Virus record (IMG/VR): IMGVR_UViG_3300021959_008099
Location: 1 to 35,352 of that record
DNA length: 35,352 nucleotides
Direction: 5' to 3' (one strand)
Source of the DNA: a virus
The notes beneath the pieces were generated by a model, which saw only the letters and a list, made by a program, of their open reading frames with translations, was not told where the DNA came from and searched no databases. Positions 12,458 to 30,238 of this stretch are shown piece by piece. The position numbers and the translations under genes were made by a program. The first letter of the stretch is position 1. The number at the start of each line of letters is the position of its first letter.

Positions 12458-12670
12458 ATGTCAACTAAAGGAACCGCAGCAAAGTCTGCAAATGGGGCAG
12501 CAATGTCCAAGTATGATGTTGAAGTTGAGGCAAGACTTCAATCACTTGAGAAAAAATCAAATGATGGAGGTGATGATAGAATCGCAGTTCTAGAAAAAAA
12601 ATATACAGCACTTCTTGAAGAATTGAAGGGAGCTAGACTTCCACTTGACTTCAACGATCTTTCTCTATAA
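12458..12670 (+). CDS. Small coiled-coil phage protein
   Basis: A 70-residue protein starting MSTKGTAAKSANGAAMSKYD, then a coiled coil in two parts (VEVEARLQSLEKKS and DRIAVLEKKYTALLEELKG) and a short hydrophobic end. A similar opening occurs in small conserved cyanophage proteins that I recall. It may help assembly or bind a partner through the coiled coil. It is the last gene before a hairpin and a terminator, so it closes this unit. Confidence 0.65.
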   Translation: MSTKGTAAKSANGAAMSKYDVEVEARLQSLEKKSNDGGDDRIAVLEKKYTALLEELKGARLPLDFNDLSL

Positions 12671-12716
12671 GGTTTCTTGCTTTTCCTAAAAGCAAGTGGC
12701 GTGCATGAAAAAACCT
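12670..12716 (+). other. Structured 3' UTR element
   Basis: Right after the stop, CTTGCTTTT/AAAAGCAAG (12676-12684, 12688-12696) form a perfect 9-bp stem with loop CCT. AGGTTT (12670-12675) and AAACCT (12711-12716) enclose it as an outer 6-bp stem. With the terminator at 12722-12748 the transcript end carries two stacked structures. Confidence 0.5.
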
Positions 12717-12721
12717 AGTTG

Positions 12722-12748
12722 GGGTGGTTGCATAAACCACCCTTTTTT
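12722..12748 (+). terminator. Rho-independent terminator
   Basis: Perfect 8-bp stem GGGTGGTT (12722-12729) / AACCACCC (12735-12742), loop GCATA, then TTTTTT. It isolates the tRNA region from the glycan gene run. Confidence 0.9.
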
Positions 12749-12770
12749 AGTATAATTTAAAAATATTGGT

Positions 12771-27471: not shown

Positions 27472-28267
27472 GTCCTCTTTTAAATTAAAAAATCTACCTC
27501 ATATATACTGGCTGAATCTTGACAGTGATGTTGAGAGACGAAAGTATATGGAATCTCAATTTAGGTATTGGGAAATTGAGAAGCATACTAGAATCTCTGG
27601 ATATGATGCTAGAGGTGATAACGATGTTTCATGTCATTTGAAAGGAATTATCCCAGATAATGTCAATCAGAATGAACTTGGTTGCTGTATGTCTCATCTT
27701 AAAGCAATCAAACATTTTTATGAGGAGACCGATGACGAGTACTGTATCATTGTTGAAGATGATGTAAATTTGGATATTGCAAAATATTGGAATTTTACAT
27801 GGACTGATTTCTTTTCTCTTCTACCATATGATTGGGATTGTGTTCAGTTAACTACTATCTGCACAGGAGACATTCATGTAAAACTTCATCTAAAGTTTAT
27901 CAATGATTTTTCTGCTGCCATCTATTTGATTAGTCGTCATCATGCATCAAAAATGATGAAGTATCATATTCGTGGCAACAAGTTTAAACTTGATAACGGT
28001 GTAAAACCAAGAGCAGTATCTGAGGATACTATTCTTGAAAGTGGAAAGACTTATACTATTCCACTCTTTTTATATAATCTTGAATTTGATTCAACAATTC
28101 ATCCTGAACATATTAATGTCTTTCATAAAGCTCCACACGATGCATTATTGAATTGGTGGCAGCAATCTGGTTCGGAGGTTGACATTAAAGACCACATGAA
28201 CTATGATCCGTATCTGGGTCGAATTACTGAACCTTCCCAGAAACATGAGGAAAACCCACCCTCTTGA
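27458..28267 (+). CDS. GT25-family glycosyltransferase
   Basis: GT25 (LPS galactosyltransferase type) markers: IYWLNLDSDVERR near the N terminus, ELGCCMSHLKAIKHF, and the EDDV metal motif, then FSAAIYLISRHHASKMM. The family adds galactose or glucose to LPS-like acceptors. ATG 27458 gives a 14-base overlap with GT11; ATG 27437 is also possible. It ends the glycan run: its TGA stop is inside the -35 box TTGACA of the next promoter. About 269 aa. Confidence 0.85.
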   Translation: MDKNKSSFKLKNLPHIYWLNLDSDVERRKYMESQFRYWEIEKHTRISGYDARGDNDVSCHLKGIIPDNVNQNELGCCMSHLKAIKHFYEETDDEYCIIVEDDVNLDIAKYWNFTWTDFFSLLPYDWDCVQLTTICTGDIHVKLHLKFINDFSAAIYLISRHHASKMMKYHIRGNKFKLDNGVKPRAVSEDTILESGKTYTIPLFLYNLEFDSTIHPEHINVFHKAPHDALLNWWQQSGSEVDIKDHMNYDPYLGRITEPSQKHEENPPS

Positions 28268-28297
28268 CATACTACGAAATTTCGAGTAGTATAAATA
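28264..28297 (+). promoter_or_regulatory. Promoter with -35 over a stop codon plus late box TATAAATA
   Basis: TTGACA (28264-28269) contains the GT25 stop TGA (28265-28267). Seventeen bases later TAGTAT (28287-28292) can serve as -10, and it overlaps TATAAATA (28290-28297), the late promoter consensus. Between them lies a near-perfect palindrome, CGAAATTTCG (28275-28284), flanked by TACTA and TAGTA. This could give both early and late transcription of the porin-like gene. Confidence 0.7.
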
Positions 28298-28412: not shown

Positions 28413-28778
28413 ATGTTTAAATCTGTATTCGCAGCAGCTGCTGCTCTGTCCATGTCCGCAGGCGCTGCTCTTGCAGGACCATATGTTAACGTCGAAACCA
28501 ATGCTGGTTGGGTTGGAGATGACTACACTGCTGCAACCACGGATCTTCACGTTGGATTTGAAGGTGAAGCAGGTGCTGCTTCTTACTACGTCCAGGCTGG
28601 TCCTGCAATCGTCGCTGTTGACGGTGAAGACACTGATACTCAGTTCTCTGGTAAAGCAGGAGTTGGCGTTCCCGTCTCCGATGCTCTTGGAGTATATGGT
28701 GAGTTGTCCTTCCTGACTGCTGACAATGATGATGACTTCGGTCTTGGTGGTAAGTTGGGCGTCAAGTACAACTTCTGA
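28413..28778 (+). CDS. Secreted, porin-like beta-barrel protein
   Basis: A 121-residue protein with a clear signal peptide: MFKSVF, then an Ala-rich hydrophobic core and a cut after AALA (about residue 21). The rest has alternating strands, Gly-rich turns and acidic residues (VDGEDTDTQF, DNDDDFGLGG) and ends KLGVKYNF, with the terminal Phe of outer-membrane barrels. About 100 mature residues allow six to eight strands. It may go to the host outer membrane or form a secreted barrel. It has its own promoter, a structured leader and a terminator, so high expression is expected. Confidence 0.75.
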   Translation: MFKSVFAAAAALSMSAGAALAGPYVNVETNAGWVGDDYTAATTDLHVGFEGEAGAASYYVQAGPAIVAVDGEDTDTQFSGKAGVGVPVSDALGVYGELSFLTADNDDDFGLGGKLGVKYNF

Positions 28779-28787
28779 TCGTTCATA

Positions 28788-28816
28788 TAGACACATAAAC
28801 ATCTAGATGTTATACT
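28788..28816 (+). promoter_or_regulatory. Promoter overlapping a terminator
   Basis: TAGACA (28788-28793), 17 bases, TATACT (28811-28816), each one base off consensus. The expected start (about 28823) lies inside the left arm of the terminator at 28817-28842, so transcripts from upstream end here while the new one lacks the left arm. Confidence 0.65.
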
Positions 28817-28842
28817 GGGGGTGCGACGGCATCCCCTTTTTT
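28817..28842 (+). terminator. Rho-independent terminator of the porin-like gene
   Basis: GGGGGTGC (28817-28824) / GCATCCCC (28829-28836), loop GACG, one G-U pair, then TTTTTT (28837-28842). The ATG of the next gene begins at 28843, directly after the T-run. Confidence 0.9.
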
Positions 28843-29052
28843 ATGAAAAAATATTTTATAAACTTCATAACGAATCCAGGAACGCTGACCTCCCTCACAC
28901 TATTGGGGGTGATAGCACTGATAGGGGCACTGCATAACCATGCTCACTATACAATGGATAGAGATGCAGATGCTTATGTGAGACAGTGGTGTAGGTCATC
29001 ACCAGAAAACAAAAATACCTGTATCAGATATGGTACTGACTCAGACTATTGA
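28843..29052 (+). CDS. Small single-span membrane protein
   Basis: A 69-residue protein starting MKKYFINFITNPGTLTSLTL, with a hydrophobic span (LTLLGVIALIGALHNHAHY) and a polar end with two Cys (QWCRSSPENKNTCIRYG) that could form a disulphide. Its frame is open to 28807, but that start lies upstream of the terminator and inside the hairpin. ATG 28843 has no clear ribosome binding site and an approximately 20-base leader. Function unknown. The stop TGA lies inside TTGACA of the next promoter. Confidence 0.58.
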   Translation: MKKYFINFITNPGTLTSLTLLGVIALIGALHNHAHYTMDRDADAYVRQWCRSSPENKNTCIRYGTDSDY

Positions 29053-29077
29053 CAGATCTTTAAATTTACTATATAAT
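29049..29077 (+). promoter_or_regulatory. Consensus sigma70 promoter of hli, -35 over a stop codon
   Basis: TTGACA (29049-29054), 17 bases, TATAAT (29072-29077): perfect. The upstream gene's TGA stop (29050-29052) is part of TTGACA. Expected start near 29084, 21 bases before ATG 29105. Confidence 0.85.
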
Positions 29078-29104: not shown

Positions 29105-29323
29105 ATGACTGTAACAACCAATGATCGCGGACAACAGAATCTGTTCGCTAAAGAACCCCAGATGTATGTCTCTCAGATTGATGCTGAGCGTTATGGATAT
29201 GAGACCTATGCAGAAAGGGCAGAGAAATTGAATGGACGCACTGCTATGGTTGGATTTGTTGCTGCTGTTGTCTCTTATGCTTTCAGTGGTAGCGTATTTT
29301 TCTTTGGTGCCTTCGGATTCTGA
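29105..29323 (+). CDS. hli: High-light-inducible protein (Hli)
   Basis: A 72-residue single-helix protein with the chlorophyll-binding motif AEKLNGRTAMVGF (39-51) followed by a membrane span VAAVVSYAFSGSVFF. Hli proteins bind chlorophyll and carotenoid in thylakoids and protect photosystems under stress; cyanophages keep them to preserve host photosynthesis during infection. The N-terminal 38 residues are a polar extension. A perfect consensus promoter precedes it, fitting early host-polymerase transcription. The stop TGA lies in CTGACA of the next promoter. Confidence 0.95.
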   Translation: MTVTTNDRGQQNLFAKEPQMYVSQIDAERYGYETYAERAEKLNGRTAMVGFVAAVVSYAFSGSVFFFGAFGF

Positions 29324-29347
29324 CAACTGACAATTTTCTGCTATAAT
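29320..29347 (+). promoter_or_regulatory. Promoter, -35 over the hli stop codon
   Basis: CTGACA (29320-29325) contains the hli stop TGA (29321-29323); 16 bases later TATAAT (29342-29347). Expected start near 29354, 26 bases before ATG 29380. Confidence 0.72.
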
Positions 29348-29645: not shown

Positions 29646-29783
29646 ATGTTAGTATTCGCATCAGGTTTGATGATTCTTTTTGTTATTAATGCAATCTTAT
29701 CTGATATTGATGTTGATGATGACAATGACGGACCAGGTGGTGGATTAATGCAACCAGTTTATTCACCGTCTTCTTCTGCTTGA
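29646..29783 (+). CDS. Small membrane protein with acidic tail (45 aa)
   Basis: MLVFASGLMILFVINAILSD then an acidic IDVDDDNDGPGGG and a short Pro/Ser tail: one hydrophobic helix plus a highly acidic linker. Starts immediately after the preceding stop, so translational coupling is likely. The same pattern (hydrophobic, SDID, DDDND, GGPGGG) recurs in cyanophages as far as I recall. The stop TGA is in TTGACA of the next promoter. Confidence 0.65.
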   Translation: MLVFASGLMILFVINAILSDIDVDDDNDGPGGGLMQPVYSPSSSA

Positions 29784-29808
29784 CAAACTAAATAAATTAC
29801 GGTATATT
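29780..29808 (+). promoter_or_regulatory. Promoter overlapping a stop codon and a terminator
   Basis: TTGACA (29780-29785, containing the upstream TGA stop at 29781-29783), 17 bases, TATATT (29803-29808). Expected start near 29815 lies inside the left arm of the terminator at 29812-29833, as at 28788-28842. Confidence 0.72.
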
Positions 29809-29811
29809 ACA

Positions 29812-29833
29812 GGAGCATCGATGCTCCTTTTTT
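29812..29833 (+). terminator. Rho-independent terminator
   Basis: Palindrome GGAGCATCGATGCTCC (29812-29827: stem GGAGCA/TGCTCC, loop TCGA) followed by TTTTTT. It ends upstream transcription just before the cell-wall hydrolase gene. Confidence 0.88.
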
Positions 29834-29839
29834 AATGAC

Positions 29840-30238
29840 ATGATTTTAGAAACAATCCTAGCACTAACACCCCTCGATTATGATCACTTAGCAAGAGCGA
29901 TTCAAGTTGAAGCGGCTGTAAATACTTTTGATGAGTACTGTGTTGCAGTATCAATTATCAATCGAGTTAGGTCTCCTTACTTTCCCAACACTGTTGCTGA
30001 CGTAGTTTATGCTCCTGGTCAATATCAAGGATTTGATTACAAGAGACCTGTTGCCAACATAAATTTGGTTAACGAATTACAATCAAATAAAGGAAAAGAA
30101 AATCTTTTAAAAGCATATAGCATTATTGGAGATAGGACTGACTTTAAAGGACAGAGTATGCTACCATATCGCGTGGTAGCAGAAGACCCAATGTGTGATC
30201 CAAAAGGCAACTTCTTTCATTACCACTGGCAATCATGA
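29840..30238 (+). CDS. Cell-wall hydrolase, SleB/CwlJ-like (Hydrolase_2)
   Basis: Cleaves peptidoglycan, probably at lysis or entry. The Hydrolase_2 opening ARAIQVEAAVNTFDEYCVAV (18-37) has the catalytic Glu E24, then SIINRVRSPYFPNTVADVVY and APGQYQGF. 132 aa, a single domain without signal peptide or membrane segment. It has its own promoter overlapping a terminator. The gene ends with a four-base overlap into the next one. Common in cyanomyoviruses. Confidence 0.85.
   Translation: MILETILALTPLDYDHLARAIQVEAAVNTFDEYCVAVSIINRVRSPYFPNTVADVVYAPGQYQGFDYKRPVANINLVNELQSNKGKENLLKAYSIIGDRTDFKGQSMLPYRVVAEDPMCDPKGNFFHYHWQS

Follow-up and report, generated by a model that had tools for sequence, protein, structure and literature searches.

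In the filamentous phages fd and M13, the central terminator overlaps the promoter of gene III. A related arrangement is found in the Kayvirus vB_SauM-515A1, in which the early promoter p98 is located immediately after the terminator t97, with RNA-seq support (PMC7698491). For cyanomyoviruses, the excerpted text of PMC2984593 gives the NATAAATA motif as the late promoter and treats as an open question how these viruses keep early, middle, and late transcription apart when they lack the asi and motA functions of T4. No description of promoters starting inside phage terminator hairpins was found in the literature searched, which covered few subscription journals.

We analyzed a 35-kb fragment of a T4-like cyanomyovirus (IMG/VR record IMGVR_UViG_3300021959_008099). 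The whole stretch of 35,352 nucleotides is hereafter called the window. Its best relatives included S-SM2, Bellamy, and S-CAM1, among others. A preliminary description had named two promoters whose start points lie inside terminator hairpins. Reading of the sequence located both promoters and both hairpins, at 28788–28842 (case 1) and 29780–29833 (case 2), and both promoters were of the sigma70 type with 17-nt spacing. The distance from promoter end to hairpin start was 0–2 bases at both places. We consider that the two segments are probably fused terminator–promoter junctions of a marine cyanobacterial virus. In related cyanophages, with which a comparison had been proposed, the layout recurred, in 48 of 79 loci for case 1 and in 15 aligned junctions for case 2. 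As judged from these sequences, the layout is conserved and repeated in the window and in many relatives.

The gene upstream of case 1 encodes a cyanophage outer-membrane beta-barrel protein (PF24653, phrog_417; 28413–28778, plus strand). A late promoter motif, TATAAATA, of the NATAAATA type was read upstream of it at 28289–28296 (plus strand). The junction itself, also on the plus strand, begins with the −35 hexamer TAGACA (28788–28793), followed by an extended −10, TGTTATACT (28808–28816), with TG at 28808–28809 and TATACT at 28811–28816. The promoter scored 10/12 plus the TG, with a spacer of 17 nt. A predicted intrinsic terminator with an 8-bp stem and U6 comes next at 28817–28842 (left arm 28817–28824, loop 28825–28828, right arm 28829–28836, U-tract 28837–28842). 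With the +1 set seven bases past the −10, the predicted start is at about 28823, inside the left arm. The ATG of the downstream gene phrog_2587 (28843–29052, plus strand) stands directly after the U-tract, in line with the earlier remark that a gene begins close to the T-run.

Case 1 was surveyed in the 79 loci, window included, that contained the outer-membrane-protein gene and enough downstream sequence. A terminator directly followed this gene in all 79, and a fused promoter was found in 48. In the fused (A-type) loci with a readable ORF, the next start codon was 0–1 nt past the U-tract (47/47). The genes downstream of fused loci belonged to two families that were unlinked by BLASTP. Thirteen loci had the endolysin gene next instead, and the fused promoter was missing from all of these. 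Most relatives retained TAGACA or TTTACA as the −35, and TG and TATAMT were near-invariant; among 20 distinct sequences, TG and TATA.T were invariant or nearly so, and the base between them was T, C, or A. The hairpin arms differed little among relatives. Isolate S-CAM1 had the same layout after its outer-membrane-protein homologue, and the exact core of the element was present in 96 stretches of viral contigs.

The case 1 spacer contains a 14-bp palindrome, AACATCTAGATGTT, at 28798–28811, to which no strand applies. It could be a DNA operator or a weak RNA hairpin, as far as the sequence suggests. A role as a genome-wide operator was rejected: no searched locus or record had more than one copy, and in the loci read the copy always followed the outer-membrane-protein gene. 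It was retained exactly or nearly in L019, L080, and Bellamy, all lacking the −10, and in S-SM2 (centre AA). In L019, it reads AACACCTAGGTGTT, a paired change. One-sided changes were of both wobble and mismatch types.

Case 2 (plus strand) is preceded by a 45-aa ORF (29646–29783, plus strand), the TGA stop of which (29781–29783) lies within the −35 hexamer TTGACA (29780–29785). The −10 hexamer is TATATT (29803–29808), the spacer is 17 nt, and the promoter scored 11/12. The predicted intrinsic terminator (29811–29833) has a 7-bp stem and a T-run (arms 29811–29817 and 29822–29828; T-run 29828–29833), and the predicted +1 at about 29815 is again in the left arm. After the T-run ending at 29833, an endolysin/cell wall hydrolase gene starts at 29840 (29840–30238, plus strand). 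The 15 aligned junctions, with isolate Bellamy included, were mostly upstream of endolysin-type genes. Invariant columns were TTGACA, TAT..T, the CCT that closes the right arm, and the U-tract. Sequence varied in the spacer and loop, and the arms, as read from the alignment, changed together (GGAGC/GCTCC, GGGAAC/GTTCCC, and GGGGAC/GTCCCC), a compensatory change by which terminators are recognized. In L149, the end of the −10 was itself part of the left arm. On the level of the alignment, this conservation pattern is the one expected if promoter and terminator are under joint selection. The parts are nevertheless separable, since L019, L080, and Bellamy kept the case 1 hairpin, together with the palindrome, without the −10, and L091 and L093 kept the case 2 promoter without the hairpin.

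Both hairpins had the form of Rho-independent terminators, with G+C-rich stems of 8 and 7 bp directly before a U-tract, and both promoters corresponded to the sigma70-type early promoters of cyanomyoviruses, with hexamers at 16–18 nt or an extended −10. The T4-type late promoter NATAAATA was absent at the −10 of either junction and present upstream of the preceding gene. No Rfam family was found across either junction. The calculated energies of the full hairpins were −16.3 (case 1) and −9.5 kcal/mol (case 2), whereas the RNAs from the predicted +1 gave −1.9 and −1.2 kcal/mol. These values support the earlier proposal that a new RNA without the left arm would be unable to fold the terminator. 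Both hairpins were better than all 200 shuffles (z −4.1 for case 1 and −3.9 for case 2). Over 26 junctions, the mean was −13.4 kcal/mol for the full hairpin, −1.6 kcal/mol from the predicted +1, and −13.5 kcal/mol with the promoter shifted 6 nt upstream. The −35 was weak or missing in a few members, which rely on the extended −10.

The window had 26 plus-strand promoter-like sites with a match of at least 10/12. Its raw number of promoter-like sites was close to that expected from shuffles. The evidence therefore lies in the register and in how well it is conserved, and not in the motif by itself. The chance that a promoter-like site ends within 3 bases of the stem was about 0.005 for a given terminator in the window, and about 8e-5 for two of the three strong plus-strand terminators.

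To quantify the layout across genomes, a single fixed rule was used to call terminators in every genome set. The complete cyanophages were Syn9, S-PM2, P-SSM2, S-SM2, Bellamy, Syn19, S-SSM7, and S-CAM1 (n = 8), and the controls were T4, KVP40, and 1.2 Mb of Synechococcus/Cyanobium DNA. The layout was defined as a −10 whose end is no more than 3 bases from where the stem starts, the expectation was taken from the region further upstream, and similar entries were removed. In the complete T4-like cyanophages, 11 of 110 terminators had the layout, compared with 0.7 expected. Pooling with fetched fragments gave 26/187 (1.7 expected); because the IMG/VR fragments were fetched via flanking genes, these families are over-represented, and only the complete genomes give an unbiased count. 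We introduced the extended −10 rule once the first hits had been seen; the simpler rule without it gave 13/118 versus 2. A reversed-consensus control found 3 in the pooled set, as against 26. An adjacent 7-nt zone of equal size, in which a promoter would yield RNA with the complete hairpin, contained 4. T4 and KVP40 had the layout at 1 of 67 terminators, and host cyanobacteria at 0 of 43, a weak control given the 43 terminators and the high-GC genomes. Chance as the origin of the layout was ruled out by the reversed-consensus, adjacent-zone, T4/KVP40, and host controls.

The junctions occurred in about ten unrelated contexts, as counted by eye. They were found directly after psbD in Syn9, S-PM2, and S-CAM1, one gene further in Syn19, and after psbA in S-PM2. 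The TGA stops of psbD and psbA were directly followed by TATAAT or TATACT (S-PM2 138887 and 136626, Syn9 168323, and S-CAM1), so that the stop codon supplies the TG of the extended −10 ahead of the terminator. The S-PM2 psbA site is within an annotated antisense RNA region (Cyanophage Functional RNA 1).

Two further fusions of terminator and promoter were observed, so the two cases first described were too narrow a frame: the layout is one of three such fusions in these phages. In the second, the −35 is in the hairpin loop, the right arm and U-tract form a 16–18-nt spacer, and the −10 is just beyond. It was present at 20 of 187 cyanophage terminators and at 0 of 110 control terminators. A perfect example is S-SM2 167143 (GGAACCC TTGACA GGGTTCC TTTTTTACTA TATAAT). 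In a control with swapped downstream sequences, the complete genomes gave a mean of 4.4 (maximum 10) versus 13 observed, indicating that −10s are over-abundant in general immediately after U-tracts and that this accounts for part of the signal. The window has one such fusion by sequence and fold, at 12722–12756 (plus strand; hairpin 12722–12742), preceding a dTDP-sugar epimerase gene, and relatives have the same layout. Its −35 TTGCAT (12728–12733) extends into the loop, its −10 is TATAAT (12751–12756), and its 17-nt spacer consists of the right arm and U-tract. In the third fusion, a late promoter NATAAATA lies within 15 nt after the stem. It was found at 23 of 187 cyanophage terminators, not significantly commoner than the 4 of 67 in T4 and KVP40 (p 0.11), and we therefore make no claim of cyanophage specificity for it. 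With strict calls and a slightly wider late-promoter window, 71 of the 187 cyanophage terminators, about a third, had one of the three fusions.

Several observations were made around these elements. A weak match to the wcaG RNA (26.9 bits, below the cut-off of 42) was located at 12618–12710, just before the loop −35 fusion, and at the equivalent position of a relative, L014 (10068–10166), the match was 98.9 bits. The motif (A)RTGGCAC(A) was found directly before many loop −35 hairpins, often right after a stop codon, in S-PM2, P-SSM2, S-SM2, Bellamy, Syn19, and S-SSM7. At the promoter of the high-light-inducible gene in the window (29049–29077), TTGACA-17-TATAAT was retained; the hairpin around its −35 in S-SM2 and Bellamy was unrecognizable there. 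L365 and L366, binned as Rhodobacteraceae and Crocinitomicaceae, carried cyanophage-type high-light-inducible genes with 96% and 67% identity to that of the window, and they are probably mis-binned phage contigs.

We propose that host RNA polymerase with the primary sigma factor would bind the −35 and −10 and initiate within the hairpin's left arm. Lacking that arm, the new RNA would form no terminator fold and would read on into the next gene, the start codon of which lies 0–7 nt after the U-tract. RNA from the upstream gene would have both arms and would stop at the U-tract. Judging by sequence, energy, and conservation together, a start in the left arm with escape, and stopping of the upstream RNA, is the most likely reading. 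Initiation at these bases, the efficiency of termination, and the timing are inferred from sequence. The preliminary idea that one stretch of DNA may both stop old RNA and start new RNA agrees with a layout that is conserved, that recurs in many unrelated contexts, and that is more frequent than in the controls. Case 1 combines a late promoter before the upstream gene with a junction promoter of the early (sigma70) type, so a late transcript would end where an early-type transcript begins.

The same description had seen a designed insulation between genes, and this held in part. The downstream gene would be shielded from read-through RNA. Promoter occlusion would remain, since polymerases from upstream must pass over the promoter on their way to the terminator, and the insulation is thus one-sided; moreover, plain intergenic compaction predicts the same layout. 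According to such compaction, DNA is saved by packing stop codon, promoter, terminator, and start codon together, with no regulatory gain from the overlap; the parts work as described above, and the −10 lies as close to the hairpin as escape of the new RNA permits. The packing of stop codons points this way. In the window, four promoter-like sites have a −35 that includes the TGA of the ORF before it (28264–28269, 29049–29054, 29320–29325, and 29780–29785), and in complete cyanophages a stop codon was inside the −35 at 11.3 sites per correct spacing versus 3.2 per wrong spacing (about 3.5×). The U-tract adjoining the start codon and the equally tight other fusion types are also consistent with it. 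However, T4 and KVP40 have comparable genome sizes and are without the layout, and compaction leaves the retention of the terminator unexplained. We regard compaction alone as quite possible, although short of probable.

On top of the preferred reading, a start in the left arm with escape, an added function may be considered. Of 76 case 1 loci, 75 had the late promoter NATAAATA no more than 200 nt ahead of the outer-membrane-protein gene, so late transcription could occlude the sigma70-type junction promoter and stop short of the early gene. Late traffic would in this way turn off the early gene in a self-timed manner and without a repressor. That cyanomyoviruses are without motA and asi homologues, according to the excerpted text of PMC2984593, would fit such a switch. 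However, other junctions come after psbA or psbD rather than virion genes, and occlusion requires dense upstream traffic, which makes this function doubtful. A wider proposal is that T4-like cyanophages have a genome-wide grammar of the three fusion types, ending one transcript class and launching the next as a repressor-free timing switch at late/early borders; we put this forward only tentatively.

A hand-over of recycled polymerase is improbable. Here, the polymerase would release its RNA at the U-tract, slide back, and restart at the overlapping promoter, coupling the rates of the two transcripts. In vitro, E. coli polymerase moves along the DNA by diffusion once intrinsic termination has occurred, and it starts again at promoters close by (PMC6978380); the junction promoters are about 30 bp or less from the release point. 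However, this was not seen in vivo in the same study, sigma retention is required, and a late (gp55) polymerase would need to exchange its sigma factor for a sigma70 promoter. We also considered that transcription may start a few bases earlier, with most new RNAs carrying the full hairpin and stopping at 20–30 nt unless conditions change. A start 2 nt earlier indeed left several pairs in some members (S-PM2 136626 and S-CAM1 94909), but the predicted +1 is inside the left arm and promoters were rare in the whole-hairpin zone (4 versus 26 in equal-sized zones), so such attenuation is highly unlikely. Finally, that the sites are no promoters, just AT-rich sequence ahead of a G-rich stem fitting a loose consensus, agrees with the shuffle-like number of promoter-like sites in the window but is very hard to reconcile with the reversed-consensus control, the sharp register, the 17-nt spacing, the hexamers conserved beside a variable spacer, and the association with the downstream gene.

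A recurrent element of about 60 bp that is predicted to end one transcript and start another, in some places directly after psbA and psbD, provides concrete, mappable sites for the question of transcription timing in cyanomyoviruses. It is also a compact, ready-made part for cyanobacterial expression design. In these phages, many candidate sites will escape promoter and terminator predictors that do not allow the two to overlap.

The junctions consist of ordinary parts in an unusually regular overlapping arrangement, and promoters beside phage terminators are already known. Similar to the case of fd and M13, terminator and promoter share DNA between two genes on the same strand; a difference is that fd/M13 is a small phage with a single such site. 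We classified the junctions as ordinary parts newly arranged because adjacency is known in phages and the fusion is undescribed in the cyanophage passages. Those passages, excerpts of PMC3037559 and PMC2984593, deal with the same phages, with predicted sigma70 promoters and NATAAATA late promoters, and with the same type of terminator; within them, promoters and terminators are treated separately, with no overlap or fusion described. Reinitiation by E. coli RNA polymerase after termination resembles the junctions in that released polymerase can make use of a promoter near the place of termination, whereas that system is in vitro and engineered, with promoter and terminator separate (PMC6978380). 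Like the virus studied here, vB_SauM-515A1 is a large lytic myovirus with a sigma70-type promoter adjoining an intrinsic terminator at one junction (PMC7698491). Its promoter comes after the terminator, with the start outside the left arm, and it is described for one place, in contrast to the repeated layout of the cyanophage junctions (PMC7698491).
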